Shown one piece after another: positions 1,478 to 20,067 of a DNA stretch of 21,653 nt (its first letter is position 1; each line of letters begins with the position of its first letter). The translations under genes and the position numbers were made by a program. Below the pieces are notes generated by a model, which worked only from the letters and a program-made list of their open reading frames with translations, was not told the DNA's origin and searched no databases. This DNA comes from a virus: IMG/VR virus record IMGVR_UViG_3300032331_001067, positions 1 to 21,653 of that record; one strand, 5' to 3'.

Positions 1478-2266
1478 TTAACTCTGTTTGTATCTTTCTG
1501 AAATAATATTAGTTAAGCATAGTCTGTTTACATTACCTCTTTTAAAATCTGAATACTTATCTGTATAATCTAACCCAAACAATATAGTATTTGATGGGAT
1601 AACATCCAATTCAGCACATATTTGCAATTGAGTGTTTAGGTATTTAGTAATCATGTCGTCCGGGGACATTTTATCAATTAAATCATAATGATGTTTGGCA
1701 CTGGCTATGAAAGGATAGTTCCATTCTGTGTAAACCGTTACTGGGTATTTATCTATGGTGTATAGTAGTCCAACTCTATGAAGACCAGTACCAAATGTCT
1801 TAGATAAACTAAAACCAACACTATGTATGTTTTTGTATTGAGTAAAGTCAAATTCTATCCCATGACATATACCAAAAAATGCACAATCTACAAATATGGG
1901 TTTATTGTAAGAATCTGCTATTTTTAATTTCTCATGTGAACTCATTCCGTCCGCACTAAATGGATGACTAATTATAATAGCATCCGCTAAATCTAAATTT
2001 TCAGTAACCCGATCATCTAGCACAAGTTTATGATATCCATATTCTCCTTTGAACACCCCTATCTTATTGTATAACGAATATGTTTGATTAAATGCATCAG
2101 TTAACCCAGACACAATATATGATGCATCGGGTAGTCCAGTAACTGGTTGAGAAGAAGAATGAATCCAATTATCAAATTTATTTTTAAAGGACAAAAACAA
2201 ATTTGGATCATGGGATTGCATATTTAAAGCCATTGCACCCTTCAATAGTTTTTCATGGTTAATCAT
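1478..2266 (-). CDS. Short PLP-dependent aminotransferase-like enzyme (fold type I)
   Basis: The protein has a PLP enzyme active-site pattern: FVDCAFFG (Asp127, expected to contact the pyridine nitrogen) followed by GFSLSKTFG (Lys156, the Schiff-base lysine) and HRVG (Arg164, phosphate contact). This is the class I/II aminotransferase arrangement S-x-S-K...R-x-G. At 262 residues it is far shorter than the usual ~400, with only about 105 residues after the lysine, so most of the C-terminal small domain seems absent or reduced. It resembles the product of 12874-13704 (for example FKNKFDNWI versus FKDKFHNWI). The ATG at 2264-2266 overlaps the upstream radical SAM gene by 8 bases as ATGATTAA. An in-frame GTG at 2312-2314 would add 16 residues, including AKYLNLSTN, which resembles aminotransferase N-termini, so it remains a real alternative. 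Substrate unknown. Confidence 0.78.
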   Translation of the reverse strand: MINHEKLLKGAMALNMQSHDPNLFLSFKNKFDNWIHSSSQPVTGLPDASYIVSGLTDAFNQTYSLYNKIGVFKGEYGYHKLVLDDRVTENLDLADAIIISHPFSADGMSSHEKLKIADSYNKPIFVDCAFFGICHGIEFDFTQYKNIHSVGFSLSKTFGTGLHRVGLLYTIDKYPVTVYTEWNYPFIASAKHHYDLIDKMSPDDMITKYLNTQLQICAELDVIPSNTILFGLDYTDKYSDFKRGNVNRLCLTNIISERYKQS

Positions 2267-3380
2267 TATGTTGGTACTTAAATTTAGGTATTTTGCTATC
2301 GGCACTACTAACACATGATGTACTTATGCAAATCTTAGCTTTATCGAATAATTTGAATCCAGTTTCAATATTGCCAATTGGTTCATCTTTGCAGCTATAG
2401 CTTCTTTTGATGTTGCCATCAGGTTCTCTTATTACTATTCCTTGAAATCCACTATTGCACATCCATCCTTTAAAGTTATTAAAGCCAAATGCATTAAATC
2501 GTTCTGCTTGATCCATATACCATTTCTTGCCTGTGCTGTCAGTAAACTCAACTTGCATATTTGCAGGAACTGATGCATCATTACTATTTAATGTATTTGG
2601 TGGCACTTGAAATTTGGGAATAGGTCTATCTTTCCATACTCTTTTTACTTCTGTATAAGAACGTTGAGGCATGCCATTCCATAACTGCTTCATCTGTTCT
2701 TCAGTATAACCACTGACTACATAGTTGGCAGTAGGATCACTTTGTGGTTTCAATGTCACATTGATTCCTTGATTGTGAAAAAACAATGCATTTTCATAAT
2801 CTCTATCAAACCATGCGGGAACCATAACCATATTGACAGTGATCTGAACATCATGTTCCTGACAGAATATCAATTTGTCTGCAAAGTCTTGCATCTTTTC
2901 AACCGTATCCAAATGCTCTGTGTGTAGACTTGCTGTGATACTAGCACGATGAAATTTCTTAGCATGTTCTACGTATGTTTCAAACCATTTCATATTCCTA
3001 GAACAGTTACTAGTCATGTGTATACTAGTATAATTAGTATTGTCTACATCATCTGCTAGATACTTGAGTATGTCTAAGTACCCCGGATGAAATGTAGGCT
3101 CTCCGCCACTTAAGCTAAAATGAAAACTATTGAATCCATTACCTCTAGCTTGTCGTTTTATCTCATCAATTGTCGTTAAACATAATTCTGTGGGTCTATG
3201 GTCTTTTGTATCACTACGGGCATATGGCCAGCAATAGCTACACTTATAGTTACAGAATCTACCTAATAACCAACTGACTGTAAATAAGTCACGGTATAAT
3301 AGTGTGCGTTGACCTACTTGTACTATATCTTTAAATGGTATTTTAGTGAAGTCATATTCACTATATTTTAAATCTGTCAT
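2259..3380 (-). CDS. Radical SAM protein with C-terminal auxiliary cluster region
   Basis: This 373-residue protein has the [4Fe-4S]/SAM motif CNYKCSYC at Cys43, Cys47 and Cys50. The SAM-binding SGGEPT follows at 91-96 and TSNCSRNMKWF near 125-135. The C-terminus has four further cysteines (308, 330, 351, 356) in the setting FKGWMC ... YSCKDEPIGNI ... CISTSC, as expected for a twitch/SPASM-type auxiliary cluster. Such enzymes start radical reactions by reductive SAM cleavage. The substrate here is unknown. It belongs with the products of 5653-6852 and 13682-14662, which share the FK(G/N)W-x-C entry to the cluster region. The start ATG overlaps the upstream stop as ATGA, and the PLP gene follows immediately. 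Confidence 0.93.
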   Translation of the reverse strand: MTDLKYSEYDFTKIPFKDIVQVGQRTLLYRDLFTVSWLLGRFCNYKCSYCWPYARSDTKDHRPTELCLTTIDEIKRQARGNGFNSFHFSLSGGEPTFHPGYLDILKYLADDVDNTNYTSIHMTSNCSRNMKWFETYVEHAKKFHRASITASLHTEHLDTVEKMQDFADKLIFCQEHDVQITVNMVMVPAWFDRDYENALFFHNQGINVTLKPQSDPTANYVVSGYTEEQMKQLWNGMPQRSYTEVKRVWKDRPIPKFQVPPNTLNSNDASVPANMQVEFTDSTGKKWYMDQAERFNAFGFNNFKGWMCNSGFQGIVIREPDGNIKRSYSCKDEPIGNIETGFKLFDKAKICISTSCVSSADSKIPKFKYQHND

Positions 3381-4330
3381 AATTTATATTTGTTACAATC
3401 AAATCCGTTTTTAGACATGAGTTCTAAATTTTTCTCATGCCACTCTATCAATTTTTCGTGAAACTCATCAGATTCAATATTGAATACTTTTTCTAAATAC
3501 CCTTTTTTAAACAGTTTAGAGTATTTGATTACTGAAATTACTTCATTGCTTAGTTTAGGATAAATGAAATTATATTCTGATTCAAACTTACACATAATAT
3601 GATTATATTTTTTAAACAAAGTTGTTGGATCTGTGGTAAAAATTTCTTGAAATGAAGCAGTAATTTCATTTTTTAATAAATATGTATGTTTGATCACATC
3701 TAATTGAATTTCATACAGCTCTGATATATCATTCTTGATTACCCAATCTAATGCATCATTATATAAATTAAAAATTTTTGCATTGTGTATATTTGAACTA
3801 CGTTCATATTCAAAAAAATTAATCTTTTTATCTTCTGTGGGACAATCATGTTTGATTAATAAGGCTTTTAAGAATAATAAAATTTCTTTATAAGTATGCC
3901 ATTTTTGGTTGTCGGCTAATAGAAAGTATGTATTGTTGTTATGAAAAAAAGAATTAGTAGAAACGTGACACCGTATTAATGGTGGGTTTTTGTCTTGGTT
4001 AAGATAAGCAATAGCTTCATCCGTTTTTTCTTTTATATCAAAATTTAAAAAATCATGTTGATTTTTAATAGCAGTAATAAGTTCATTAACAGTATTTACA
4101 TGTTGTGGTTTTTTTATTCTGCAAGATCCTAATATTTGAAAAAACGGCAATAACCAAACAAGAGTTCTATTTTTATCAGTAACTCGAATGTGCGTAGAAA
4201 TATTTCTAAATTTACTAGAATAGGTAGATATTAAACTACTTAGAAATTCACCACCGGTACCTCCCGGATACATCAAATAGTATGCAGGATAATTTAATAA
4301 TACATTTTTAATTAATTCTTCATCTGTCAT
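3377..4330 (-). CDS. Unknown protein with P-loop-like N-terminus
   Basis: This 317-residue protein begins with a hydrophobic stretch AYYLMY followed by PGGTGGEFLSSLI (from residue 22), a glycine-rich loop plus helix resembling a phosphate-binding loop. The motif is similar to the one in the product of 742-1476. The rest is rich in Lys, Asn and Phe, and I find no further family signature. A sulfotransferase-like or other P-loop nucleotide-binding protein is possible but rests on this motif alone. The ATG at 4328-4330 makes an ATGA overlap with the preceding PP-loop gene, the commonest junction in this operon. An ATG nine bases earlier (4337-4339) would add Met-Ala-His. The gene ends in another ATGA overlap with the downstream radical SAM gene. 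Confidence 0.62.
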   Translation of the reverse strand: MTDEELIKNVLLNYPAYYLMYPGGTGGEFLSSLISTYSSKFRNISTHIRVTDKNRTLVWLLPFFQILGSCRIKKPQHVNTVNELITAIKNQHDFLNFDIKEKTDEAIAYLNQDKNPPLIRCHVSTNSFFHNNNTYFLLADNQKWHTYKEILLFLKALLIKHDCPTEDKKINFFEYERSSNIHNAKIFNLYNDALDWVIKNDISELYEIQLDVIKHTYLLKNEITASFQEIFTTDPTTLFKKYNHIMCKFESEYNFIYPKLSNEVISVIKYSKLFKKGYLEKVFNIESDEFHEKLIEWHEKNLELMSKNGFDCNKYKL

Positions 4331-5007
4331 ATGCGCCATCTATATTCAACGGGAATATTAAATCCCCATTGTCTTTCTTGACACCACCAACATTTTTTGC
4401 AACGATACATCCTAATGTGAGAACATGAACGTGTTATTAATAATAATCGTTTGGTGATATTTTTTTGCTCTGTTATCTCACATATACCTTTTTTGTTAAT
4501 TCCAGCGAACGGCCTAAACAATGTTTGACCATCCGGGAATACGATTAATTTTGGAATATCTGATTCACGATATTCTTCTCGTGCAGAATAATGCTCATCT
4601 GGTGGAATGAAATTAAATGAACTGTCAGGATTTTTTGTAACCCCATCGATAAATGCTTGTATCAGTTCTTTTTCATACAGTTCTGTTACAATTTTGTTTA
4701 CTACATCTTTCTTAAAATCACCACCAAGTGTAGTATACCTGATAATATGTTCTACAAACACATTTGGAAATCGTTTCTTTATTAAGTTCACTACTAGACC
4801 CGCAGCATGTGATGCTACTACATCTTGCTTACTAGTAGCAGTCATGGGATAAAGTTTTATATCTAACTTTTCGACTGTGATATATTCGGCTAAACAATAG
4901 AATAACGTGGCACTGTCTATTCCTCCTGATAATGAGATCGCTAGTCCTTTATAATCTTTGAAATCAAACTCAATCGTGTCTTGTGAAGTTACTATCTTAT
5001 ATGACAT
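4327..5007 (-). CDS. QueC-like PP-loop ATP pyrophosphatase, second copy
   Basis: The PP-loop SGGIDS lies at residues 27-32. Near the C-terminus are four cysteines (195, 203, 206, 209) spaced C-x7-C-x2-C-x2-C, followed by QERQWGF. QueC (7-cyano-7-deazaguanine synthase) has the same fold, length (~220-230) and a zinc-binding cysteine cluster of this spacing after its T-x-S-C segment. QueC adenylates a carboxylate and replaces it by amide and then nitrile, so ATP-dependent activation of a carboxylate is the likely chemistry. The substrate need not be a deazaguanine, because no QueD, FolE or clear QueE is present. The tandem neighbour at 5010-5690 is a close paralogue. The start is fixed by GGAGA 8 bases upstream and by alignment MSYKIVTSQDT / MAYQIVTSQDT. 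An upstream in-frame ATG at 5020-5022 is unlikely. Confidence 0.87.
   Translation of the reverse strand: MSYKIVTSQDTIEFDFKDYKGLAISLSGGIDSATLFYCLAEYITVEKLDIKLYPMTATSKQDVVASHAAGLVVNLIKKRFPNVFVEHIIRYTTLGGDFKKDVVNKIVTELYEKELIQAFIDGVTKNPDSSFNFIPPDEHYSAREEYRESDIPKLIVFPDGQTLFRPFAGINKKGICEITEQKNITKRLLLITRSCSHIRMYRCKKCWWCQERQWGFNIPVEYRWRI
4355..4389 (-). repeat. Near-identical 35-base segment shared by the two PP-loop genes (copy 1)
   Basis: This segment differs from 5038-5072 at one base in 35 by direct reading. It codes for the Cys-Trp-Trp-Cys-Gln-Glu-Arg region of the QueC-like protein. The rest of the two genes is much less alike at the DNA level, so this is either the most conserved part of a tandem duplication or a patch of gene conversion. 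Confidence 0.8.
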
Positions 5008-5009
5008 AT

Positions 5010-5690
5010 TTAAAGTCTCCATTTATGTTCAACTGGTATATTAAATCCCCAATGTCTTTCTTGACACCACCAGCAAGTGTTGCATCTATACTGTTTTCCG
5101 TCGGTGCAAGATTTGGTTATCATTAACAATCTAGTTTTAATCTTTTTCTGCTCAGTAATCTCACACACACCTTTTTTATTGATGCTCGCAAATGGTCTAA
5201 GTCTTACTAAACCTTTATCAATTAATTTAACCTTAGCCATATCTCCGTCACGTTCGGGGATTCGGGTTACGTAATGTTTATCGGGTTCAATAAATTCAAA
5301 CGTATCGTCTGGGTTTTTAGTTACCCCTTCGATCCAACCTTGAATTTTATCTTGAGTTTGTAATTGTGTAACTACCTTAAACCCTTCACTTGCTTTAAAC
5401 CCGCCCCCTCGTGAGATTGACTTGACAATGTGTTCTACTTTAAGTTTTGGAAATCTTCTGTTAACAAACTGTATTACAAGGCTAGCAAAATGACCGCATG
5501 CCGCGTCATTTTTATTAGGGACTGTGATAGCATATATTGTTAAGTCTATATTTTCTTGTGTAACATACTCGCCTATACAATATAATAGTGTCGCACTATC
5601 TAAACCACCTGACAGGTACATTCCTAAACCTGTATAATCTTTTAGGTCTATATCAATTGTGTCTTGTGATGTTACTATTTGGTATGCCAT
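5010..5690 (-). CDS. QueC-like PP-loop ATP pyrophosphatase, first copy
   Basis: This 226-residue protein has SGGLDS at 27-32 (PP-loop for the ATP pyrophosphate) and the QueC-type cysteine cluster Cys195, Cys203, Cys206, Cys209, followed by QERHWGFNIPVEHKW. Length and motif spacing are the same as in the downstream copy, and by eye about half the residues are identical. FASINKKGVCEITEQKKI before the cysteine cluster is also shared. By analogy with QueC it should activate a carboxylate with ATP. The real substrate is open, and QueC-like proteins are also known from anti-phage systems. The ATG at 5688-5690 is supported by AAGGA at 5699-5703, 8 bases upstream, although this makes a 38-base overlap with the radical SAM gene before it. 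Two bases separate it from its paralogue. Confidence 0.87.
   Translation of the reverse strand: MAYQIVTSQDTIDIDLKDYTGLGMYLSGGLDSATLLYCIGEYVTQENIDLTIYAITVPNKNDAACGHFASLVIQFVNRRFPKLKVEHIVKSISRGGGFKASEGFKVVTQLQTQDKIQGWIEGVTKNPDDTFEFIEPDKHYVTRIPERDGDMAKVKLIDKGLVRLRPFASINKKGVCEITEQKKIKTRLLMITKSCTDGKQYRCNTCWWCQERHWGFNIPVEHKWRL
5016..5020 (-). promoter_or_regulatory. Shine-Dalgarno that decides the start of the second PP-loop gene
   Basis: The minus strand reads GGAGA, 8 bases before the ATG at 5005-5007. It lies within the last codons of the upstream paralogue and overlaps the competing ATG at 5020-5022, so only the inner ATG is properly spaced. Confidence 0.7.
5038..5072 (-). repeat. Near-identical 35-base segment shared by the two PP-loop genes (copy 2)
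   Basis: This is the partner of 4355-4389, in the same orientation and at the same place in the upstream PP-loop gene. One mismatch in 35 bases was counted by eye. Confidence 0.8.
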
Positions 5691-6852
5691 TAACTAAGTC
5701 CTTATACTTTTCTTCTTTGTATTTCTTCTGTCTTAAGTCCATTGGGTCTGTGCATCTTACTTTCTCGCATATCACCGGTGTATTTGGTAATTGCACTGAA
5801 TCATCCATTGTATATATGTTAGCTAATGGACCACCTTGAAAACAATTGGCTATAAATATATCTCCATTTGGTGCAACTTTTAATAAAGTAATACCTGCGT
5901 AACAAGTCCAACCTTTAAAATTTGTTTTATATTCAAAATTCATAGCATTGTAGTGAAAATTTTCAGTTACAATACTACCATCGTCCTGCTCAATGTATCC
6001 AATCAACCACTTTCTTTCATTATTTATTGAAGAATACATGTCTTGTAATAATTGTCTATCATTGTCATCATACCAACGTTCTTCACGGGCTAATATTTTG
6101 GTAAATTCTTGTCTGTTGTCATCGTTGGGGGAAACCTTAGTTTCAGTACTAATGTCCGTTTTTGATTTTTTTATTTTCCAACGATAGCTACCATCTGGAT
6201 TTTGTACTTTGTTTTCTTCAACAAAGTACTCAGTTTGTGGACGTATGATCCTATGCTCTATCTTTTCTATACCATACTCTGAAACTAGTTTGGTTAATTC
6301 TTTAATCTCTGTGCTAAACCCGGGTAATGCCATAAAACGTACTACTAATCTTTTTGGTTGCATTTCTCCCAGTTCCCAACCTAATTTATCTTTGGGTATA
6401 GTTAAATTATAATTCTTTCTATAATCTTCTAACTTAAATGCTTTGTCCGTATACTCATTTAACTTAGGCGTTACATGCTCAAAATGTAAACTATACGTAA
6501 TGTTGTCTACGTATTGATACATTTGACATAGATATTCTATAGACCTGCTGCCGTTTGTACATACACTTATTTCATGTTTCTTGTCTTGCAAGTATTTTAA
6601 AAGTTCAATGAAGTCTGGGTTTAGTGTAGGTTCCCCACCAGTCAGACTCCAATGTATATTTGTGCCAAATCTAGCAACTATTTTGTCTACAAATATTTTC
6701 ATTTGATTGAAAGGTACGTGCGCCGAATAATTATCGTGAATAAAATCTGCACAATAACTGCAACTGAAATTACATCGTTTACCAATGTACCAATCAATCA
6801 TCATCGTATTAAGATGATTATCTCTGTATTTTGTAGCTACTAAATTATTCAT
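5653..6852 (-). CDS. Radical SAM protein with C-terminal auxiliary cluster region
   Basis: This 399-residue protein has CNFSCSYC at Cys27, Cys31 and Cys34, WSLTGGEPTLNP around 68-79, and CTNGSRS as a later core strand. The C-terminal part has FKGWTCYAG (Cys317), GDIFIANC (Cys337) and CEKVRC (Cys362, Cys367), which suggests a second iron-sulfur cluster. An insertion of roughly 120 residues between core and tail is rich in charged residues and contains ERKWLIGYIEQDDG. It is a paralogue of the products of 2259-3380 and 13682-14662. The ATG at 6850-6852 overlaps the upstream stop as ATGA. A TTG at 6880-6882 would extend it by 10 residues but is less likely. It is followed by the two QueC-like genes, which makes a functional link with them plausible. 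Confidence 0.92.
   Translation of the reverse strand: MNNLVATKYRDNHLNTMMIDWYIGKRCNFSCSYCADFIHDNYSAHVPFNQMKIFVDKIVARFGTNIHWSLTGGEPTLNPDFIELLKYLQDKKHEISVCTNGSRSIEYLCQMYQYVDNITYSLHFEHVTPKLNEYTDKAFKLEDYRKNYNLTIPKDKLGWELGEMQPKRLVVRFMALPGFSTEIKELTKLVSEYGIEKIEHRIIRPQTEYFVEENKVQNPDGSYRWKIKKSKTDISTETKVSPNDDNRQEFTKILAREERWYDDNDRQLLQDMYSSINNERKWLIGYIEQDDGSIVTENFHYNAMNFEYKTNFKGWTCYAGITLLKVAPNGDIFIANCFQGGPLANIYTMDDSVQLPNTPVICEKVRCTDPMDLRQKKYKEEKYKDLVNGIPNSNITRHN
5699..5703 (-). promoter_or_regulatory. Shine-Dalgarno for the first PP-loop gene
   Basis: The minus strand reads AAGGA, 8 bases before the ATG at 5688-5690 and inside the 3' end of the upstream radical SAM gene. It supports the long 38-base gene overlap as real. 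Confidence 0.65.
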
Positions 6853-7775
6853 AATTTTTCTGATGATATTATTTTTTCCCAATATTTATTTTCATTGCAA
6901 TGTGTTTTGCAAGTAAAAGAACATTGAGATTGCCAACTAGATATTAAATTTTTATATTTTACGTGTTCTATTGCACTGAGTAATGGCATCGTATTTAAAT
7001 CGCACTTGATGTCCTCAGTAGTATAGCTTGCATGAAAATAGCAGCATGGATATAATTTAAAACTGCTACTTATATACATGTATCCTGTTTTTAAACTGCG
7101 ACAATTTATATTAGTTGCAATATCTTTTGAGGCATTGAAACTTCTTTGTTTGACTAAAGGTAAATTAATCAATTCAATAGGCTTGTTTTTAATTTCCCTA
7201 GATGAAGGTTCTGATACAAAGGTATTAACACCTAATTTTTTTGCTAGTTTTTTTGCTTCTTCTACTTGATGTTCATTGTGTTTAAATATTAAAAATTTCC
7301 AATCAGAATATCCGCCGGCGTCTATGTAAGTTTTCATATTCCGCATTATTAATTTCCAATTGGTATCAACACGGTATATATGGTTAGTATCTTCTAACCC
7401 ATCAATACTGAATCTGATACATACACCTGTTCTCTCGCTTATCTCACCCAATTGTTTCCATATTTTGGTGCTTCGTAAACTTCCGTTTGTGTCCAATGAA
7501 ACAGATTTGACATGATCTGCGCTATAATTGATAATTTCAACTATCTCTGGGTTCATCATTGGATCACCACTAGCCCCGCCAAAGTAAAATTTTATATTTT
7601 TTGGATTAGGTATTTGACTTATTAGATTTTTAATTTGATCTAATGATATGTTACTAGTGTCTAATGATTCTGGTGAAGAAAATTCTCTTATGCAAGCTGG
7701 ACATTTGGCGTTACAATAATTTGATAACTCAATCTCAAAATATTTTATATCATCAATGGTTAACCAATCTGTCAC
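6849..7775 (-). CDS. Radical SAM/SPASM-type protein with a GASGDP variant motif
   Basis: This 308-residue protein begins IEL-SNYCNAKCPAC (Cys21, Cys25, Cys28). Where most radical SAM proteins have GGEP it reads FGGASGDPMMNPE. The core also has SLDTNGS, FSIDGLEDTNHIYRV and FKHNEHQVEEA, shared closely with the products of 16071-17123 and 17125-18210. The C-terminal cysteines Cys225, Cys244, Cys245, Cys258, Cys285, Cys289 and Cys293, including YPCCYF and CSFTCKTHC, fit a SPASM domain with auxiliary clusters. SPASM enzymes often act on peptides or other large substrates, but nothing here identifies one. The start is GTG at 7773-7775 in a GTGA overlap, backed by GAGGTG at 7781-7786. Confidence 0.92.
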   Translation of the reverse strand: MTDWLTIDDIKYFEIELSNYCNAKCPACIREFSSPESLDTSNISLDQIKNLISQIPNPKNIKFYFGGASGDPMMNPEIVEIINYSADHVKSVSLDTNGSLRSTKIWKQLGEISERTGVCIRFSIDGLEDTNHIYRVDTNWKLIMRNMKTYIDAGGYSDWKFLIFKHNEHQVEEAKKLAKKLGVNTFVSEPSSREIKNKPIELINLPLVKQRSFNASKDIATNINCRSLKTGYMYISSSFKLYPCCYFHASYTTEDIKCDLNTMPLLSAIEHVKYKNLISSWQSQCSFTCKTHCNENKYWEKIISSEKL

Positions 7776-9064
7776 TTAAACACCTCACTTAAATGAGGGA
7801 ATACTTCTAATACATTCTGATTTCGTTTGATATCAAGTACTTTGGTATACTCTATTAATTCTTCATAACTTCCAGCTGTAGGTAATTCAGTACTGTGTAG
7901 TGCTCTAATTACGTCTTGTATAGAATTTTTTGTTTTTTGGTCAACTGCTTTGTCAATTAATGGAGTTAACTTGCTAATCGCTTCAATTCTTAATGATATT
8001 GGTATGTGTTCTATACGCATTAAGTTTGGATTAGTTACGGGATCCATTCTCCACCACAAGTCCTGTAGTTCATTGTCTTTGGTATAATCAATAAACCAAT
8101 CTATTAGTTTATGCATGGTGCAACTATTATAGGACATCACACTACTAGTTACCCATTTAGTCCAATGACTACCTAACCCTTTAACTAGTTTTAAGTTATT
8201 CTCTATTGCACTCCATTTGCTACCGTAACGTATGTATTCATTCTCTTCACCGTATGCGTCAATACTTATACCAATCCATCCTGTACAAAATTGGTCCCAT
8301 AACTCAATATGACGCTGCTGCAAACTATGTATATTAGTATGTACATGAACATGTATATGCCTGCTGTGCCCACTACTAACTACTTTCTCTACTAACTCCC
8401 ATAGTGTTTTATCTGCCGTAGGTTCTCCGCCGTGTAACTCTAGATATTTAATGTCACTAATATTATCCCAAAATTGATTTAAAAAGAATTCACTTTCTCC
8501 TAAATACCCATTTGAATTGTATTGTATTATTGCCGATTCAGTATTCTTTTTAACACTCAGTGGAAGTTCATTGCTAAATTTAGCAAACTCCTCACGCATC
8601 TTGCTGCTAGTTTGGGGTATGCACATGCGGCATGCTTCATTACATATGCTACTTAAGCGTAACTCCCACCATACTGGCATTGTACTCATCATGCCATTGT
8701 TTTCTTTTGCTTCATCTATCAAGTGTTTGTTATCGTTATAATACGCATCTATTACTGCTTGCCGTTTGCTAGCAACACCCATACTATCTTCTTGGTAGCA
8801 AGTCTCACAAAACTTTATGTATTCATTGTTGATTTTCTTCATGCGAAAATCTTTTAAAAACTCACTATTCCATATTTCTTCTACTGTGTCTTTTGTGAGA
8901 TTACATGCTCTGTTTTTGGATTCTAATATAGTCTCTACTGTTGAATCTTTCTTAATTCCCGGCATGTCCATTACTTGACTGCAAGGTTTCACTTGCCCGT
9001 TAGGTCGTGTGTTCAATGTAATGAACGGCATCAGACAGAATTTAGGCTTGTCTTTATATTCCAT
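7772..9064 (-). CDS. N-twitch radical SAM protein
   Basis: The 430-residue protein has auxiliary-cluster cysteines before the core: Cys10 (FCLMPF), Cys28 (NGQVKPC) and Cys86/Cys89 (FCETCYQED). The radical SAM motif CNEACRMC follows at 141-148. It continues with LHGGEPTADKTLWE, SIDAYGEENEYIRYGSKW and the tail LDIKRNQNVLEVFPHL. This order is that of the 'twitch domain-containing radical SAM protein' family that I associate with marine phage sequences. Function of that family is unknown to me. A His-rich HIHVHVHTN sits in the core. The ATG at 9062-9064 follows AGGGT (9071-9075) by 6 bases and overlaps the upstream gene by 11 bases. It is the last of four consecutive N-twitch genes. Confidence 0.93.
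   Translation of the reverse strand: MEYKDKPKFCLMPFITLNTRPNGQVKPCSQVMDMPGIKKDSTVETILESKNRACNLTKDTVEEIWNSEFLKDFRMKKINNEYIKFCETCYQEDSMGVASKRQAVIDAYYNDNKHLIDEAKENNGMMSTMPVWWELRLSSICNEACRMCIPQTSSKMREEFAKFSNELPLSVKKNTESAIIQYNSNGYLGESEFFLNQFWDNISDIKYLELHGGEPTADKTLWELVEKVVSSGHSRHIHVHVHTNIHSLQQRHIELWDQFCTGWIGISIDAYGEENEYIRYGSKWSAIENNLKLVKGLGSHWTKWVTSSVMSYNSCTMHKLIDWFIDYTKDNELQDLWWRMDPVTNPNLMRIEHIPISLRIEAISKLTPLIDKAVDQKTKNSIQDVIRALHSTELPTAGSYEELIEYTKVLDIKRNQNVLEVFPHLSEVFK
7781..7786 (-). promoter_or_regulatory. Shine-Dalgarno supporting a GTG start
   Basis: The minus strand reads GAGGTG, 5 bases before the GTG at 7773-7775, which is the start codon of the SPASM-type gene. It lies in the last codons of the upstream N-twitch gene. 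Confidence 0.65.
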
Positions 9065-12877: not shown

Positions 12878-13704
12878 TTTATTAACTTTCTAAGTAGTGG
12901 TCTCACACCACATGGTCTACCATTATCCCATGCTAAATGTATTGCTCTAGTTGGGATCAAGTTGTATTCTTCACATATCTGTTTATAAGCATCACCGTAT
13001 TTATTTTGCCAAAAATCAACACCAAACTTATCTATGAATTTAGTCCCCATCCAAACTATTATCTGTGAATTCATATTAAATTCATTTATTATACTGACTG
13101 GTCCCTTCCAACGCTCCCTACAATAACGAACACCTATTCTATTAGCACCTAACCCTAATGCTTTACTTAAACTAAAGCCAATACTCTTTATACAAGGCTG
13201 ATCAAAGTTAAACACGATATCCCTAGAGCACCCATACCAACAAGCATCTATATGAACATTAACGCCTATTTCATTGCACTTAGATAATATGCTATCAGAG
13301 TCAACGTGTATATCACCATAATATGGAAACGGCATACTCATTATCAAGTTGTCACCTGACTGAAATGTATGAAAATTTCGTACAACTAGTTTATCCCCGT
13401 ATAATCGTTGGTGATATCTATACTCATTTTCTAGTACACATACGTTATCTTTCATTTGATGTATGTCATCAATGTACTGAGTTACCCCTGCAATAATGTC
13501 TCTATCAGGAAAACTCTCTAGTCCAGTTACGGTGTTTAACTTGCTAGACACAATCCAATTGTGAAACTTGTCTTTAAAGTCTTGCCATAACTTATCAGGA
13601 TCGTTTGCAAAATTTTCACCTGAGGTTAGTATCGCAGAGATATAATTGTGTACCTCTGAATCATACATACTCTGCGGTCTATCATATTGTAGTAAGTGCT
13701 TCAT
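12874..13704 (-). CDS. Short PLP-dependent aminotransferase-like enzyme (fold type I), paralogue
   Basis: This is a relative of the 1478-2266 product. It has VHIDACWYG (Asp153), SIGFSLSKALGLGANRIG (Lys181, Arg189) and the N-terminal FKDKFHNWIVSS...VTGLE. Residue numbers assume the ATG at 13702-13704, which gives 276 residues. The PLP-binding Asp, Lys and Arg are all present, but the protein stops about 95 residues after the lysine, much shorter than normal aminotransferases. A carboxylate-binding small domain is therefore mostly missing, and the reaction could be something other than transamination. Other possible starts are ATG 13726-13728 (adds 8 residues, 47-base overlap) and ATG 13666-13668 (12 residues shorter, no overlap). 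The signals do not clearly decide. The gene directly follows a radical SAM gene, as its paralogue does. Confidence 0.78.
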   Translation of the reverse strand: MKHLLQYDRPQSMYDSEVHNYISAILTSGENFANDPDKLWQDFKDKFHNWIVSSKLNTVTGLESFPDRDIIAGVTQYIDDIHQMKDNVCVLENEYRYHQRLYGDKLVVRNFHTFQSGDNLIMSMPFPYYGDIHVDSDSILSKCNEIGVNVHIDACWYGCSRDIVFNFDQPCIKSIGFSLSKALGLGANRIGVRYCRERWKGPVSIINEFNMNSQIIVWMGTKFIDKFGVDFWQNKYGDAYKQICEEYNLIPTRAIHLAWDNGRPCGVRPLLRKLIK

Positions 13705-14662
13705 CTTTGTACTTGTGTAATACACCATCCATCTTGCATCCGCAATAACTCTCTGGACACGACATATATTCTGAATTACCCTTTAAGGTACCGTCGTATA
13801 TATTTCCCATTTTGTAATTTAATTTAGGATATCTCCCTCCACCAATTACACTACAAGGCCAAATATCACCATCAAGCCCAATGAACAATCTTTTAATTCC
13901 CGCAGAGCATTTCCAATTCTTAAAACTGTTTTTTTTCTCTATGACAAATGTTTGCCAATTTGTTTTCTCCCCGTCTACAAATAGTTCAGTGGGTGTATGA
14001 ACTATGGCAGATTTCTTAGTTAAGAATTTGTCTCTGTCAAATAGCATCTCCTCACGGGATAGATTCAATTTAGAAAGCATTTCAGGAGTATAATCAAAGT
14101 ATGTACCGGATGAATTAGTTTTATGTCTTGCTAATTTGTAAAAACAATCTACTGCTAAATTATCTTTTATCTTCTTGTATAAATTGTTTATCTTATCAAA
14201 GTGTAATGGGTCTAGCATAAAGCTACTGGTTACTTGATGTGTTTTATGTACTGTGCTTAAATTAGCATAATATAAATCAGGGTCACATAATGCTCCGTGA
14301 TATGTAAAATCTAATAGAACATTCAATTCTAATTCTTCTGCTGCAAATTCTTCCCACCATCTTGTTGAACGGCTTCCGTTAGTTTCTATGGTCGTAATTA
14401 TATTTGATATTTTCTTAGTTTCTTTTAGAAAATCAAGAAGTTGTGGCCACATTGTGGTTTCTCCGCCTAACAAGTCTACGTAGACTTTTTTGTTATTCTT
14501 AGCAAGGTTTTTAATAAAAGTTAACACTAAATCATAATTTGGAAATTTTACTTTATTGTCGTGTAGCATTTCAGGACAATAAGCACACGCAAAATTGCAC
14601 ATGCTTGTGAATTGCCAAGTTAATAAAAAAGCATCTCTGTCATTGCTGTGTATTTCCTTCAT
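13682..14662 (-). CDS. Radical SAM protein with SPASM-like C-terminus, GGET variant
   Basis: This 326-residue protein has CNFACAYC at Cys22, Cys26 and Cys29. The second motif is LLGGETTMWP (66-69 GGET), in which the usual Pro is Thr. ETNGSRSTRWWEEF follows. The C-terminus reads FKNWKCSAGIKRL, GLDGDIWPCS, MGNIYDG and CPESYCGC, with Cys252, Cys270, Cys302, Cys307 and Cys309 available for an auxiliary cluster. The G-x-I-x-P-C followed by G-N-I-Y arrangement is typical of SPASM tails. It is the shortest of the three related enzymes (with 2259-3380 and 5653-6852). It precedes a PLP gene with a short overlap, repeating the order seen at 2259-3380 and 1478-2266. The start ATG forms ATGA with the upstream stop. 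Confidence 0.93.
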   Translation of the reverse strand: MKEIHSNDRDAFLLTWQFTSMCNFACAYCPEMLHDNKVKFPNYDLVLTFIKNLAKNNKKVYVDLLGGETTMWPQLLDFLKETKKISNIITTIETNGSRSTRWWEEFAAEELELNVLLDFTYHGALCDPDLYYANLSTVHKTHQVTSSFMLDPLHFDKINNLYKKIKDNLAVDCFYKLARHKTNSSGTYFDYTPEMLSKLNLSREEMLFDRDKFLTKKSAIVHTPTELFVDGEKTNWQTFVIEKKNSFKNWKCSAGIKRLFIGLDGDIWPCSVIGGGRYPKLNYKMGNIYDGTLKGNSEYMSCPESYCGCKMDGVLHKYKDEALTTI

Positions 14663-16071
14663 TCAACTATTCCTTTTAATAAAGGAAATACTTCAGGAAA
14701 CTTGTCTGTCCAACCTCGTTCTTTGTTTATTAGAGTTAAATATTCTTTAGTTTCGGGCAATCTAGCAGACCAATCTTCTGAATTCATAAAGTCTATAATA
14801 CCTTTGAATCGTTTCATGCCATAGGGTGCTTCTATAAATTTGTCTAAAGTTATACCATTCTCAGCTACGCCAGTAAATTTTTGCCAATTGTCAAGCATCC
14901 ATGGATATAATTCTTCATTGTATTTTTTAGTTATTTGTTCTTTAACTTCTTTGGGCAATACTTTAACATTCAATTGGGGAGGCCAATACGCAAAATGACA
15001 ATTAATACCACCTGCACCAAAGGGCCATGTGTTTATTTTTTTGAAACCTTGCTCAACTTTCCATTTAAGAAATTCAGGTAGATATCCAATATTCAATGCA
15101 GTAATAGTAGTGGCAGTTGTTATTTCAACTGAAGGTGCAGTGTTGTCAAGTTGCCAAAATATATCTTCTTGGTGTTTCCATACAGAAGGATATCTCATGT
15201 AATCATTTACTTCCCCGTACCCGTCGATGCTATAATGAAATCTAACACGTTTAAACTGTGCCCACAAGTCAAACAAATCGCTTCTGCGTTCAACTGCGTT
15301 TGAGTTATATCTTAACTCTATATTTTTGGCATACCCTCTACGTATGCATTCTTCTAATAAATCATAGTGTTCATCAATTATTAAACTTTCGCCACCGGCA
15401 AAATACAATTGATACATATGTGGTATTTGCTCATATAAGTCACTCCAAAATTTAGGATTGTTTTTATGCCAGTTATAACTAGCACCGTCATTCTGTCCTT
15501 TGTTTTCCCATTGACTAGTGTTCTTTAATTTCTCATTTGTTATCTTTGGATAGATAGATTGCCATTCTTTTATCCAACCTGTGCTGTCATGTGGACTACA
15601 CATCACACATGCTAGCTGGCATTTGCTACCCATACGTAAATCAATATATCTTATCTTTGGTGGAATTTTGCCATTTTCATCAGTTTCAGCAATTAATTCA
15701 TTCAAATCAAATCGTTCTGCCCAGTAGTTAGTTTCCCAATTGCGTTTGCTTAAATGACCACTATCTTCTTCTTTATAACACTTTAAGCAACTTGCTGGCT
15801 TTTCTCCTCGCAACATCATTTTGCGTACATTACGCATATAACTAGAGTTCCATGCTTCTTCCAGACTAGTGTGGTTAAAATTAGCTGGAACACCGTCGTC
15901 ATTGCGTACTACACCAACTTCACCTCCACCTATTTTTATATTAGAATCAGGGTCTTGCACAGAACTAGCATTGCTAGTACAACAAGTACGCATCTTGCCA
16001 TCAGGTCTACTACTTAAATGCATCCACGGTAACGCACAGAAGGTAGTAGAAAGTTTTGTTTTATCAGTCAT
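14659..16071 (-). CDS. N-twitch radical SAM protein
   Basis: This 470-residue protein has auxiliary cysteines Cys12 (FCALPW), Cys30/Cys31 (KMRTCC) and Cys95/Cys98 (CLKCYKEED). The radical SAM motif is CQLACVMC at 151-158, with Gln in place of the common Asn. The SAM-binding motif reads YFAGGESLIIDEHYDLL, with Ser in place of Pro in GGEP. HYSIDGYGEVNDYMRYPSVW and a tail with NKERGWTDKFPEVFPLL follow. The interval between the first two and last two auxiliary cysteines is longer than in the siblings because of a glycine-rich KIGGGEVGVVRNDDG insert. The start codon shares one base with the upstream stop (TAATG). It stands apart from the block of four N-twitch genes, separated by a radical SAM-PLP pair. 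Confidence 0.93.
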   Translation of the reverse strand: MTDKTKLSTTFCALPWMHLSSRPDGKMRTCCTSNASSVQDPDSNIKIGGGEVGVVRNDDGVPANFNHTSLEEAWNSSYMRNVRKMMLRGEKPASCLKCYKEEDSGHLSKRNWETNYWAERFDLNELIAETDENGKIPPKIRYIDLRMGSKCQLACVMCSPHDSTGWIKEWQSIYPKITNEKLKNTSQWENKGQNDGASYNWHKNNPKFWSDLYEQIPHMYQLYFAGGESLIIDEHYDLLEECIRRGYAKNIELRYNSNAVERRSDLFDLWAQFKRVRFHYSIDGYGEVNDYMRYPSVWKHQEDIFWQLDNTAPSVEITTATTITALNIGYLPEFLKWKVEQGFKKINTWPFGAGGINCHFAYWPPQLNVKVLPKEVKEQITKKYNEELYPWMLDNWQKFTGVAENGITLDKFIEAPYGMKRFKGIIDFMNSEDWSARLPETKEYLTLINKERGWTDKFPEVFPLLKGIVE

Positions 16072-17123
16072 TATAATTTTTTCATCTTAGTATTAGCCCC
16101 GTACCCGCTACTAAATTCATATCCTGTACCACAAGTACGACCACAAGTATATATTCTATCGGAAGAATCTTCCCATGTTTTTTCTAAATAATTATCGTAG
16201 AATTCATGCTCTAATACTTTATTCCAACCGTGTATACTCAATTTATTAAAATCATTTCCAAATTTATTTAATATTTTTTTTATATCAATTTTCTGTACAT
16301 CTTTTTCACCTTGAAAATGAATTGGAGCACCTACCCAACAACAAGGCCATACTCTAGTTTCAAAGTCAACATAAATCATTTTTTCTTGTTTATATTTACA
16401 AACTATTTCAGTATTTCTTACATACTCCTCAAAACTTCCATAAGATTTAACTACTGCGGCATAATCTTTTAATATAGGATTATCGGTGCGATCTTTAACT
16501 ATTTCTGTTTTTTTATTTTGCACTGTATTTTTATACCCATTGGAGTTTATAAATCTTGTTGTATTTTTTGTGTTAAAAGTTTGAACACCAATCTTTTTGG
16601 CTAATTCCATAGCTTGTTCAACTTGATGTTTATTGTGTTCAAACACTAAGTAGTCCCATCTAGCATTGCCCCCAGCTTCAATAAATGCCTTAACATTTTC
16701 TATAATCTTATTGAAATTGCTATTTACTCTATACAAGTGATTAGTATCTTCTAACCCATCGATACTGAACACAACTTGTAATATGTTTTTTTTGCCTAAC
16801 TCTCTCCACCAAGCTGTATTCCTAGCACTGCCATTGGTAATTATTCTCATCTTATTGAAATTGTTTTGTAAGCACCAATCTAGTGTGTCATCAAATGTGG
16901 GGCTAGCAATCACATCCCCGTAGTTACCGCAATGTAGTATGCCCAAATCTTTTCCTATAAACGGTTCAAAAATCATTTTATAATCATCAACCGTAAGATC
17001 ATTGATTGGCATTGCCGAATTAACCTTGTCTCCTTCAGTCCTGGCGCATTGAGGACACAATAGATTACACCTTGATGTGTGATCGATTTGAATAGTTTTT
17101 ATTTCGTCAAATGGAATATACAT
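16071..17123 (-). CDS. Radical SAM/SPASM-type protein with a GNYGD variant motif
   Basis: This 350-residue protein begins MYIPFDEIKTIQIDHTSRC, with the core motif CNLLCPQC at Cys19, Cys23 and Cys26. In place of GGEP it has LHCGNYGDVIASPTFDD. SIDGLEDTNHLYRVNSN and FEHNKHQVEQAMELAKK match the products of 6849-7775 and 17125-18210 closely. The C-terminus has CKYKQEK, VWPCCWVGAP and YTCGRTCG, consistent with a SPASM-type auxiliary cluster region. The ATG at 17121-17123 begins one base after the stop of the upstream gene. An in-frame GTG at 17181-17183 would add 20 residues and overlap heavily, so it is less likely. The protein ends in a Gly/Ser-rich segment with a basic tail (KMKKL). Confidence 0.92.
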   Translation of the reverse strand: MYIPFDEIKTIQIDHTSRCNLLCPQCARTEGDKVNSAMPINDLTVDDYKMIFEPFIGKDLGILHCGNYGDVIASPTFDDTLDWCLQNNFNKMRIITNGSARNTAWWRELGKKNILQVVFSIDGLEDTNHLYRVNSNFNKIIENVKAFIEAGGNARWDYLVFEHNKHQVEQAMELAKKIGVQTFNTKNTTRFINSNGYKNTVQNKKTEIVKDRTDNPILKDYAAVVKSYGSFEEYVRNTEIVCKYKQEKMIYVDFETRVWPCCWVGAPIHFQGEKDVQKIDIKKILNKFGNDFNKLSIHGWNKVLEHEFYDNYLEKTWEDSSDRIYTCGRTCGTGYEFSSGYGANTKMKKL

Positions 17124-17124
17124 T

Positions 17125-18210
17125 TTATTTAAACTGCTCAGAAAAAGCGTCAAACTCTGTGCTACATTTTTGTGAGCATACACCTAATTTGCCTTCGGAA
17201 ATACTAGTTAAACCCCAACTAAGTTCAATGTCTTTCAATAAGTTATTATTATCTATTACTGTACTCAGTTCATTGTTGATAACATCAATACCTTGTTTAC
17301 CACCTGCATTGTCTATGAAATCCCAAATTTGCTCAGTTCTATAATCTTCATTCCACCATTTATACATGCGACCGGCTGTCCAGCAGCATGGCATTAATAA
17401 TCCTTCAGCAGTAATAAAAATATTACCTTCTTTGGCAACTTTACAATCAATTTTGCAAGTATCGTAATATTTAGTCATGCTTCCGTGCTGTTCAATTATT
17501 GATTGTTCTTTTGATACAATGCGGTTTTGAAATTCTATTTTAGGTTTCTTTAATAGAACTGTTTCTATTCCCTTACGATTCTGTGCTTGATGTTCTTCTT
17601 TTCCTTGGTTTCTAGCAGTACTAAAGAACCTAGCAGTTTTCTTTTTGATAAACTTTTCACAGCCCCATTCATTTGCTAGCCTTTCGGCTTCTTCTACTTG
17701 GTGCTGATTGTGTTCAAATATAATATAGTCCCATCTTGCTCTGCCACCTGCATTGGTAAAACTACGCATACTGTTTTCTACTATACTCCATTTAACATTT
17801 TGGCGATATAGATGATTAGTATCTACTAACCCATCTACGGAGAATATTACAGCACCTTTGTTGTTGTATATCTTTGCTAACTCAGTCCACCAATCAGTAT
17901 CTCTAGCACCTGCATTGGTATTCATACTGAGCCACATGTTAGGATTATGTTCTCTAAAGTAACGGAATACTTCTAGTGTATCTTTAGCAACAATAGGATC
18001 TCCTAAGTTACCGCACATATACATTGTATCTAATTGTTTAATAAACTTAGGTGAGAAAATCTTCTTACAGTCTTCCAACGATAACTCAGCATTGGTAATG
18101 TGTTTATTATCTTTGCCACCATTTTCGTTTCGGTCACACATTGGACAAGCAGCTTGACATAGCTGCGTTATTTCTAAGTGTACTTTCCGTATATCTTTTG
18201 ATTTGTACAT
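17125..18210 (-). CDS. Radical SAM/SPASM-type protein with a GNLGDP variant motif
   Basis: This 361-residue protein has the core motif CQAACPMC at Cys18, Cys22 and Cys25, followed by MCGNLGDPIVAKDTLEV where GGEP is expected. Next come MNTNAGARDTDWWTEL, FSVDGLVDTNHLYRQNVKW and FEHNQHQVEEAERLA. The tail contains CKVAKEGNIFITAEG, LMPCCW and CSQKC, consistent with SPASM. It is adjacent to, and clearly paralogous with, the downstream 16071-17123 gene and more distantly the 6849-7775 gene. The CPxC[DAR]R opening is shared by all three. The start ATG lies one base after the stop of the N-twitch gene upstream. Confidence 0.93.
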   Translation of the reverse strand: MYKSKDIRKVHLEITQLCQAACPMCDRNENGGKDNKHITNAELSLEDCKKIFSPKFIKQLDTMYMCGNLGDPIVAKDTLEVFRYFREHNPNMWLSMNTNAGARDTDWWTELAKIYNNKGAVIFSVDGLVDTNHLYRQNVKWSIVENSMRSFTNAGGRARWDYIIFEHNQHQVEEAERLANEWGCEKFIKKKTARFFSTARNQGKEEHQAQNRKGIETVLLKKPKIEFQNRIVSKEQSIIEQHGSMTKYYDTCKIDCKVAKEGNIFITAEGLLMPCCWTAGRMYKWWNEDYRTEQIWDFIDNAGGKQGIDVINNELSTVIDNNNLLKDIELSWGLTSISEGKLGVCSQKCSTEFDAFSEQFK

Positions 18211-18211
18211 C

Positions 18212-19390
18212 TTAAAATAAATGCTCTAAGTCTTTCTTTAGTTGAGGTACTTCATCCCATATACTAAAAGACTTTTTGTCATTGGCTAAATTTGTAAATT
18301 CTATAAATGTTTTCTGTAGTTCTACGTTTGGCTCACACGGCGTTTTTATGAAGTTAATCAATTCATCTAAAAATCTATATTTTATTTGAATATCTAATGC
18401 TTCAAGTCTACGGGCTACTTCTAATCTAGATTCTAATGGTACTATGTTATTTACATTTAAATGTTTAGGATTTATGCAGATTTGTTTGAAGTTTAACCAC
18501 CATTTGGCATCATTTAATAATTCATTCATGTCCATAATATATTCTGGCAACGTATAAATGTTATAAGGCATAGTAACGTGAATTACTGATCCTCTAGCAT
18601 TTTTGATACTTGTCATTTGTCTAATGTTTTTCTTCACTACTTCATAACTACTAATGCCATCATATCTTACCCAATTACTAACATCATCAGAACCATCGAT
18701 GCTAACACTAAAAAACACACTAGGAAATCTTGAAAAAATTTCATTATATTTCTTAGTCCATAGTGTTCCATTAGTTATAATCTCTACGCTCTTGCATCCT
18801 TTACTCAATAACCATTCTAGCATGTATTCAAAATCTTTAAATGCAAAAGGTTCTCCACCTTTAAAATTGCAGCGTTGCACCTCAATGAACATCTTATCTA
18901 ACACGTTATCTATGTACTTGCGTTTAAATCTAAATGGTTCGTACATTTGTTGATTGCCTAAACTATGCATTTTTCCATCTGGATCAATCTTTGTCCATTT
19001 AGTACTGTTTCTACTGCTGCACATAATACACCACAAATTACAAACATTACCTAAATCAATATCCATATTGATTGGTCTAGAGTAATCCCACAGGCCTTCG
19101 TGCAACACCGCAGTATGCCGCATTGCATTGCGTTGGCTTATTAATTTATTTTTTTCTTTTGAAATACAATTTTTGCATATCTTATTAGAATCACAATCAC
19201 CTGATTGAATTTCTTCTTTACTATCTAACCAAAGTTTACTATTAAAGAAATTAGCCCAATCTAAATCATCGTCCAAATGGCACAATTTAGTATTTGTTGC
19301 ACAGCATACTTTAATGTGACCTTGCGGATCAATATCAATTTGACTTTCGGGCGCCGGGCAATATTTTTCTAATACTAGCTTGTTACTCAT
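18212..19390 (-). CDS. N-twitch radical SAM protein, divergent
   Basis: The first auxiliary cysteines of this 392-residue protein are Cys11 (YCPAPE) and Cys29/Cys30 (HIKVCC), the second pair Cys72/Cys75 (CKNCISKEK). Two further cysteines (37, 66) are not found in its siblings. The core motif CNLWCIMC is at 117-124, followed by CNFKGGEPFAFKDFEYML and SIDGSDDVSNWVRYDG. The usual PSxW after R-Y is absent, and the tail (IWDEVPQLKKDLEHLF) lacks the LDxxRN element. It is therefore the most divergent of the six N-twitch proteins here, and the first to be transcribed. The start ATG overlaps the methyltransferase-like gene as ATGA. Confidence 0.92.
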   Translation of the reverse strand: MSNKLVLEKYCPAPESQIDIDPQGHIKVCCATNTKLCHLDDDLDWANFFNSKLWLDSKEEIQSGDCDSNKICKNCISKEKNKLISQRNAMRHTAVLHEGLWDYSRPINMDIDLGNVCNLWCIMCSSRNSTKWTKIDPDGKMHSLGNQQMYEPFRFKRKYIDNVLDKMFIEVQRCNFKGGEPFAFKDFEYMLEWLLSKGCKSVEIITNGTLWTKKYNEIFSRFPSVFFSVSIDGSDDVSNWVRYDGISSYEVVKKNIRQMTSIKNARGSVIHVTMPYNIYTLPEYIMDMNELLNDAKWWLNFKQICINPKHLNVNNIVPLESRLEVARRLEALDIQIKYRFLDELINFIKTPCEPNVELQKTFIEFTNLANDKKSFSIWDEVPQLKKDLEHLF

Positions 19391-20067
19391 TTAATTCCTA
19401 TCCTCATGTATCTTGTGTACTTATCTAAAAATAATTCACCGTCGTAATAGACATGACTCATTGGTGTTTGATTCGCAAATTCTTCTAAACTACTAGAACA
19501 ATTAACATGTTCTTCTATTTCAAAATTGTTAGATTGAAGTACTACTATTTTACCTTTAGGAATTTTTGAATACCATTCATTAAAATTTTCAATATGTTCG
19601 CAACTTGTATTAATTATAGTATCAGGGCTTTCACTTAAAGATAGACTAGTGCCATTGGAGCGATATGTAGTGTGTTCAGTTGGGTATTTCATACTATGAA
19701 TATCTAAAGTGCTAGCTTTAAATTGCCACCCGTCAATTACCCATGGTTTATTCATAGTGTCGGCAACACTGTAGCATGATGGGTCAATATCAAATGAACG
19801 AATCTTGTCAAATTTATGTCTAACCTTATCAAACATAAAACTGGCTAATGTACCATACCACCCTGCACAGATGAATACCATACCTAATTTGTCAGGTAGA
19901 TGTTCAATTAACCATAATTTACTTTTAATTTGACCTATGCTGTATGCATCAACTAATCCAGATTCTGCTTCCGGGTATGAATGAAGTGTTCTTTTTAGTT
20001 GAGATATAACAGAGTTATCTGGGTAAAGTAATTCTAACCCGTTTAATATATTAACGGTGTTGCTCAT
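19387..20067 (-). CDS. Class I SAM-dependent methyltransferase-like protein
   Basis: This 226-residue protein has motif I-like GMVFICAGWYGT at 62-73. An acidic end of strand 2, SFDIDPSC, lies at 91-98, then STLDIHSM at 119-126. PDTIINTSCEHI at 148-159 occupies the position of the motif IV/post-I segment, and VVLQSNNFEIEEH follows. Motif I has Ala-Gly-Trp rather than the classic GxGxG, so it is a non-canonical but recognisable Rossmann methyltransferase of a kind I associate with marine phages. The substrate is unknown. The ATG at 20065-20067 follows AAGGGA (20075-20080) by 7 bases and overlaps the upstream gene by 17 bases. A TTG one codon earlier is less likely. It lies between the glycosyltransferase-like gene and the radical SAM block. 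Confidence 0.75.
   Translation of the reverse strand: MSNTVNILNGLELLYPDNSVISQLKRTLHSYPEAESGLVDAYSIGQIKSKLWLIEHLPDKLGMVFICAGWYGTLASFMFDKVRHKFDKIRSFDIDPSCYSVADTMNKPWVIDGWQFKASTLDIHSMKYPTEHTTYRSNGTSLSLSESPDTIINTSCEHIENFNEWYSKIPKGKIVVLQSNNFEIEEHVNCSSSLEEFANQTPMSHVYYDGELFLDKYTRYMRIGIK

Follow-up and report, generated by a model that had tools for sequence, protein, structure and literature searches.

What would a virus do with twelve radical S-adenosylmethionine (SAM) enzymes encoded side by side? The question is raised by IMG/VR virus record IMGVR_UViG_3300032331_001067, of which a stretch of 21,653 bases was analysed in full (the window); it is a contig fragment without a structural gene. An earlier note, made from the letters alone, had described twelve such enzymes at positions 2259-19390 in one phage-like operon. 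In the analysis reported here the twelve genes were found to be intact and to follow a pattern of constant core and exchangeable cassettes, and the core was found to have a chromosomal counterpart near glycosyltransferases in Bdellovibrionota. The explanation that appears to account best for these observations, on a finely balanced judgement, is that the window is a surface-glycan tailoring island of a T4-type phage.

The twelve radical SAM enzymes

Profile searches had been proposed in the earlier note as the check on its claim, with placement of fewer than half of the proteins in the radical SAM superfamily as the outcome that would speak against it. The window holds 22 open reading frames (ORFs), all on the minus strand, with neighbouring ends overlapping or at most 1 nt apart, and the profile PF04055 matched exactly 12 of the 22 proteins, all within 2259-19390 (E 3e-17 to 8e-5 within this record), each with an intact CxxxCxxC core. 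The Pfam cut-off is passed by ten of the twelve, g17 (20.1 bits) and g19 (21.6 bits) falling below it; g17 is accepted as a radical SAM protein on the strength of its NF033640 score (411 bits) and of a confident model with that fold, and g19 because it is a 36% homologue of g18. By motif and core-fold profile, all twelve are assigned to the radical SAM superfamily. The genes of the window are as follows.

g22, 20051..21652, minus strand: predicted tandem GT-A glycosyltransferase with two modules; 5' end cut by the contig end
g21, 19387..20070, minus strand: class I SAM methyltransferase-like protein; function from motifs
g20, 18212..19390, minus strand: N-twitch radical SAM; PF04055 33.5 bits, NF033640 160.8 bits
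g19, 17125..18210, minus strand: C-twitch radical SAM, core family OG2; CQAACPMC at residue 18, C256/C275/C345/C349
g18, 16071..17183, minus strand: C-twitch radical SAM of the g19 family; PF04055 32.8 bits, four auxiliary cysteines
g17, 14659..16071, minus strand: N-twitch radical SAM, core enzyme OG1; NF033640 411 bits, AlphaFold pLDDT 89
g16, 13682..14662, minus strand: radical SAM type B, auxiliary cysteines after the core; PF04055 45.6 bits, SPASM 20.3 bits
g15, 12874..13728, minus strand: pyridoxal phosphate (PLP)-dependent fold-type-I enzyme; invariant D161 and K189
g14, 11714..12877, minus strand: N-twitch radical SAM; NF033640 305.7 bits
g13, 10258..11721, minus strand: N-twitch radical SAM; NF033640 356.5 bits
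g12, 9054..10265, minus strand: N-twitch radical SAM; NF033640 305.7 bits
g11, 7772..9067, minus strand: N-twitch radical SAM; NF033640 294.1 bits, SPASM domain 37.7 bits at residues 11-91
g10, 6849..7775, minus strand: C-twitch radical SAM; PF04055 42.8 bits, 29-30% to the g18/g19 family
g09, 5653..6882, minus strand: radical SAM type B; PF04055 55.2 bits, C327/C347/C372/C377
g08, 5010..5690, minus strand: PP-loop ATPase, QueC-like, with C-terminal CX7CX2CX2C; 54% to g07
g07, 4327..5022, minus strand: PP-loop ATPase, QueC-like; PF06508 24 bits (cut-off 22)
g06, 3377..4339, minus strand: family unassigned; GGTGGEFL loop; kinase- or sulfotransferase-like as a guess
g05, 2259..3380, minus strand: radical SAM type B, OG12, partner of the core in bacteria; PF04055 48.2 bits
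g04, 1478..2314, minus strand: second PLP-dependent enzyme; 31% to g15
g03, 742..1476, minus strand: family unassigned
g02, 183..755, minus strand: family unassigned; kinase-like by eye; 35% to a protein in viral locus L010

The twelve proteins fall into three families, in each of which four auxiliary cysteines are conserved in the family alignments. These lie before the core in the N-twitch family (g11, g12, g13, g14, g17 and g20; CX17C...CX2C) and after it in both the C-twitch family (g10, g18 and g19; CX18C...CX3C) and the type B family (g05, g09 and g16; CX17-21C...CX4C), so the division of six against six drawn in the earlier note is borne out. A full SPASM domain has seven cysteines and the window families carry four auxiliary ones each; as far as sequence can tell, the conserved auxiliary-cluster cysteines place all three in the twitch/SPASM subgroup. 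Membership of NF033640 (N_Twi_rSAM) is set at 170 bits over the full length, a threshold passed by g11 (294 bits), g12 (306), g13 (357), g14 (306) and g17 (411); at 160.8 bits g20 is not counted as a formal member.

Paralogues within the window are only 21-36% identical within each of the three families, which are therefore old families and not recent tandem copies. Recent tandem duplication was also rejected on the ground that each paralogue has closer relatives in other phages. For most of them, the closest relatives in other phage contigs are 45-95% identical, the exception being g16, whose best relative among the 80 viral loci compared reaches 29%. The ratio of non-synonymous to synonymous change (pN/pS) was 0.08 for g05 against L010 (95% identity), 0.12 for g20 against L069 (87%), 0.18 for g17 against L009 and 0.17 for g15 against L043 (79%); other comparisons above 50% identity gave 0.17-0.47, with 0.08-0.47 as the overall range for radical SAM genes. 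Synonymous divergence is saturated in many pairs, so these ratios establish purifying selection, but not its exact strength, for those radical SAM genes of the window that have a relative more than 50% identical.

A search of viral contigs for the same gene set, also suggested in the earlier note, found twelve genes collinear in L043, a contig from another metagenome (g21-g20-g19-g17-g15-g14-g13-g11-g09-g07-g06-g05), and the block g15-g14-g13-g11-g10-g09 kept in L030. The g06 protein is 44% identical to the L043 protein at the same place. An assembly artefact is rejected by these collinear, independent contigs, and gene order identifies the blocks as inherited multi-gene cassettes rather than scattered insertions.

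Constant core and exchangeable cassettes in viruses

A search of IMG/VR with g17 recovered at least 130 related stretches, from which the 80 loci were kept for comparison. Viral contigs carry up to 23 radical SAM genes (in 242 kb), 22 (328 kb) and 20 (59 kb), and loci of about 20 kb hold up to 14. The 537 radical SAM proteins collected form 98 groups at 40% identity, 45 of which are singletons. The core was counted over 37 long loci, where OG1 (g17) is present by construction as the bait; OG2 (g18/g19), which was not bait, occurs in 32 of the 37. With the window included, the g21 family is found in 70 of 81 sources and the g22 family in 67 of 81. Because OG1, OG2, g21 and g22 stay constant against 98 changing groups, the island is described here as a constant core with exchangeable steps.

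The viral-looking origin proposed in the earlier note is supported by relatives in T4-type phage contigs. One 177 kb genome (G004) is a T4-type phage with a major capsid protein 65% and a TerL 58% identical to those of Pelagibacter phage Mosig, and another (G003) is a more distant T4-type phage. Genes neighbouring the viral arrays include, by sequence, UDP-glucose dehydrogenase, DegT/StrS aminotransferase, carbamoyltransferase, amidinotransferase and cytidylyltransferase types. VrlC adjoins the array in L081 and L086, and tail-fibre genes adjoin it in L011-L013, L068 and L074. In the first 8 kb of L047, L053, L055 and L066, genes that look by eye ClpS-, ClpP-, Nfu- and SufT/PaaD-like lie just upstream of the array, and may supply or repair iron-sulphur (Fe-S) clusters for it.

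A chromosomal counterpart in Bdellovibrionota

The idea of an exclusively viral system does not hold, since the core is also chromosomal in Bdellovibrionota. In a genome scan with the g17 alignment, g17 orthologues at 50-60% identity were found almost only in contigs of this phylum, besides viral contigs in bins. Four contigs (L091, L092, L106 and L107) were set aside under that last heading; they come from metagenome-assembled genomes labelled Rickettsiales, Gammaproteobacteria, Chloroflexi and Acidimicrobiaceae, carry a viral array with many genes 58-98% identical to viral loci, and are probably viral contigs in bins.

Within the phylum sample, the g17-family alignment matches at E<=1e-60 in 57 of 290 genomes. 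The chromosomal loci unite g17, g18/g19-type, g05-type, g21, g22 and g15-type genes and adjoin housekeeping genes, with g05 orthologues at 58-67% identity beside g17. A first look gave up to 42 N-twitch candidates in a bacterial genome; scoring was limited to five of them in each. About 16 radical SAM genes, most of them N-twitch, are packed into 30 kb of one chromosome (G022; L201-L203, C1 735-795 kb), together with a PLP enzyme and an amidinotransferase-like gene. Genes adjoining the core, named from sequence, are rfbF/G/H-like in G149, WecB/WcaJ-like in G071 and AsnB/OafA-like in G181, and would be genes of O-antigen or exopolysaccharide type.

The phylogeny of g17 gathers the viral sequences in one clade (SH-aLRT 97) that lies inside the bacterial ones; the alternative, in which all bacterial sequences make up one clade, is rejected only marginally (AU p 0.047). 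Descent of the phage core from Bdellovibrionota is therefore considered likely rather than proven. In a separate tree g13 clusters with a Bdellovibrionales protein (L131) as well as with L043 and L030.

Two further features of these chromosomes may be mentioned. At L113 13051-21271, on a Bdellovibrionales chromosome beside pheT- and rplS-like genes, the phage virion-like gene f25 stands with f21 and two copies of f4 in the order seen in viral L011-L013 and L068, and radical SAM genes then follow. Membrane protein pairs of roughly 160 and roughly 300 residues, SdpA/SdpB-like by eye, recur beside the core (L093 432-1343, L098 1554-2988, L100 936-2269, L102 19110-20559), in places next to a small protein with an RR-type signal; they have no Pfam or NCBIfam match, which leaves a peptide-maturation reading of the pairs without support from these databases.

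Partner genes in the window

The g22 family has an invariant DxD (D363, D365) in its alignment. Its AlphaFold model has two GT-A modules, the second with pLDDT about 90, and in Foldseek its top hits are glycosyltransferases, the first of them the two-module chondroitin polymerase K4CP (E 3e-5); against Pfam the matches are weak (E 1.6e-3). A two-module GT-A glycosyltransferase is predicted from this model. The g21 protein belongs to a family conserved in about 70 viral loci and is 27% identical to an annotated methyltransferase of Mosig, with no Pfam or PDB family match (a PDB profile search gave nothing usable). A weak PDB match of g15 is to an aminotransferase (E 0.0095), and g15 shares a family with an annotated aminotransferase of Mosig; g04 retains the same PLP aspartate and lysine. 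The SGGxDS loop and cysteine motif are conserved in g07 and g08, whose QueC-like PP-loop fold class includes amide- and nitrile-forming enzymes. A true QueC was rejected, as g07 reaches only 17 bits where the equivalog cut-off is 150. Profile searches gave no family for g02, g03 or g06 (for g06, Pfam, PHROG and NCBIfam), and g03 has no relative among the 80 viral loci.

What the island may do

Under the surface-glycan tailoring reading, the constant core of g22, g21, g17 and g18/g19, often with g05 and g15, would make and attach a sugar unit, and the other radical SAM enzymes, with the PLP and QueC-like amide-forming enzymes, would be exchangeable steps that alter the sugar by dehydrogenation, epimerisation, deamination or other reactions. 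The product might be placed on the envelope polysaccharide of the infected cell, where it would block rival phages, or alternatively on the phage's own tail-fibre proteins. The sugar substrate, each individual reaction and the choice between host envelope and tail fibre are thus proposed on indirect grounds.

This reading is favoured because of the fold of g22, the enrichment of glycosyltransferases, the polysaccharide-type neighbours, the sites beside VrlC and tail fibres, and the genes of Mosig. In 8 of 12 Bdellovibrionota genomes a family-2 glycosyltransferase (PF00535) is found no more than 25 kb from the core, where 2.3 such genomes would be expected (P about 4e-4, a chance estimate that ignores the clustering of glycosyltransferase genes and shared ancestry). 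The turnover of cassettes around a constant core (98 groups, 45 of them singletons) also supports it, because glycan loci behave in this way. In addition, the N-terminal auxiliary domain matches the C-terminal twitch of BtrN, an aminoglycoside enzyme (E 6e-6). The earlier note had left a choice between a dedicated multi-step pathway and one reaction applied to many targets; old families rather than duplicates, and a block (g15-g14-g13-g11-g09) inherited together, speak for several steps, and sugar-type neighbours for a glycan pathway, leaving one reaction on many targets less favoured.

Several points weigh against a glycan product, the limits of that chance estimate among them. The closest folds to g17 are the peptide-modifying SkfB, CteB, SuiB and anSME, with two sugar enzymes, BlsE and DesII, equally close (Z 10.7-11.1 for these two), and the fold search was discarded as a discriminator between peptide and sugar. 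To our knowledge, no N-twitch enzyme has a known substrate. The bacterial loci were found via g17 and all belong to one phylum, and the G022 array has no obvious glycosyltransferase inside. In G004 the array lies near replication genes, away from tail fibres. Apart from g22, the window itself lacks sugar-nucleotide genes, and neither a polymerase nor a flippase was seen in it.

The main rival is that the radical SAM enzymes modify peptides or proteins directly, either in the manner of ribosomally synthesised and post-translationally modified peptides (RiPPs) or on side chains of virion adhesins, with the glycosyltransferase and methyltransferase acting on the same protein. It is judged unlikely: the best fold matches of g17 are indeed peptide maturases, and virion-like f25 accompanies f21, f4 and radical SAM genes both in phages and in the chromosome at L113, but the window, whose genes overlap or nearly abut, contains no precursor peptide and no PqqD-like leader-binding domain by Pfam. 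No intergenic space or conserved short ORF of a RiPP cluster occurs in the array, although, the window being a fragment, a precursor may lie elsewhere in the phage. A short ORF found in 37 loci (f2) was rejected as a precursor: it encodes no cysteine, does not occur in the window, and in L047 stands apart from the array. More doubtful is a soluble small molecule or cofactor, such as a guanidino, carbamoyl or amino metabolite, acting in infected cells. Amidinotransferase-, carbamoyltransferase-, PLP- and QueC-like enzymes do recur, and a metabolic benefit for the infected host was suggested by the authors of the CP220 study (PMC2853527). Against such a molecule, a glycosyltransferase is nearly always part of the core (67 of 81 sources), and polysaccharide genes are found close to the chromosomal copies.

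Phage pathways of base modification employ radical SAM, PLP and glycosyltransferase enzymes, and together with the QueC-like match of g07 this raises the idea that the genes build a modified base protecting the phage genome. Such hypermodification is improbable, given that no FolE, QueD or QueE equivalog and no TET/JBP or hydroxymethylase match was found among the window proteins, that the same core stands beside envelope genes in bacterial chromosomes and that g07 lies far under the QueC equivalog score; a queuosine-type modification was rejected for the same low score. Least probable is a decaying or selfish array without joint function. High member turnover, with 45 singleton groups, would be expected of it, but all twelve proteins keep their catalytic and auxiliary cysteines, pN/pS is 0.08-0.47 for the genes with relatives above 50% identity, and L043 and L030 preserve the gene order.

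If the glycan reading is true, these loci would form a large reservoir of sugar enzymes that activate C-H bonds (98 radical SAM groups in 80 viral loci alone), and would tie phage host-recognition islands to the cell envelope of predatory-type bacteria. What N-twitch enzymes do, and what the dozen radical SAM genes per genome that have puzzled phage annotators since 2010 are for, become testable questions, because related genes are present in the cultured phage Mosig, which grows on Pelagibacter, and the core is present in bacterial chromosomes.

Comparison with known systems

The density of radical SAM genes, which the earlier note had taken to point to a candidate for an undescribed system, has precedents in phages. 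Campylobacter phages CP220 and CPt10 encode 11 and 12 radical SAM proteins, including an exchangeable module of five with an amidinotransferase, which the authors describe as acquired en masse (PMC2853527). Like the window relatives they are T4-superfamily phages, with an amidinotransferase and two nucleotide-diphospho-sugar transferases, and CP220 radical SAM proteins match the window C-twitch and type B profiles (E 1e-22 to 1e-31). In the CP220 stretch compared, however, the best N-twitch score is 36 bits and none is convincing, radical SAM genes are less dense (6 in 25 kb), and the g17-g21-g22 core is absent. The CP220 amidinotransferase (L236 14512-15573) is 37% identical over 360 residues to a protein in a Bdellovibrionota locus (L159).

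Pelagimyophages carry radical SAM cassettes with glycosyltransferase and lipopolysaccharide genes in a host-recognition cluster (PMC7029224), and the site of that cluster, from VrlC/baseplate to tail fibres, is seen in some relatives of the window but not in G004; the window is itself a fragment without a structural gene. Mosig (EXVC030M, MT647606) has homologues of g15 (E 3e-34), the C-twitch family (E 3e-31) and g21 (E 4e-20), in a homologous island between VrlC and tail fibres with an annotated DegT-type sugar aminotransferase, carbamoyltransferase, epimerase and methyltransferase; it differs in having only three annotated MoaA-like radical SAM genes and no full-length N-twitch array. The Tara T4-like genome ERS488813_N000010, compared by description only, is a marine T4-like phage with the same number of radical SAM genes, twelve, noted together with Fe-S supply proteins; the paper counts them as Fe-S proteins and does not describe operon, family or function (PMC5332604).

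At the level of single proteins, five window proteins are members of N_Twi_rSAM and one nearly so, the other six are not, and NCBIfam gives the family no function. BtrN has the reverse domain order to the window N-twitch proteins, and BlsE and DesII have a fold like that of g17, but peptide enzymes match it equally well. Neither an N-twitch core, nor a chromosomal counterpart in Bdellovibrionota, nor a function for them was found in the literature searched. It is tentatively suggested that marine T4-type phages and Bdellovibrionota share a glycan-diversifying system, in which a constant glycosyltransferase-methyltransferase-radical SAM core with a large exchangeable N-twitch repertoire would write variable, unusual sugars on envelopes or tail fibres; no system of that kind is described in the same literature. 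Large sets of radical SAM genes in phages are already known, and the N-twitch core with its chromosomal counterpart is the new part.

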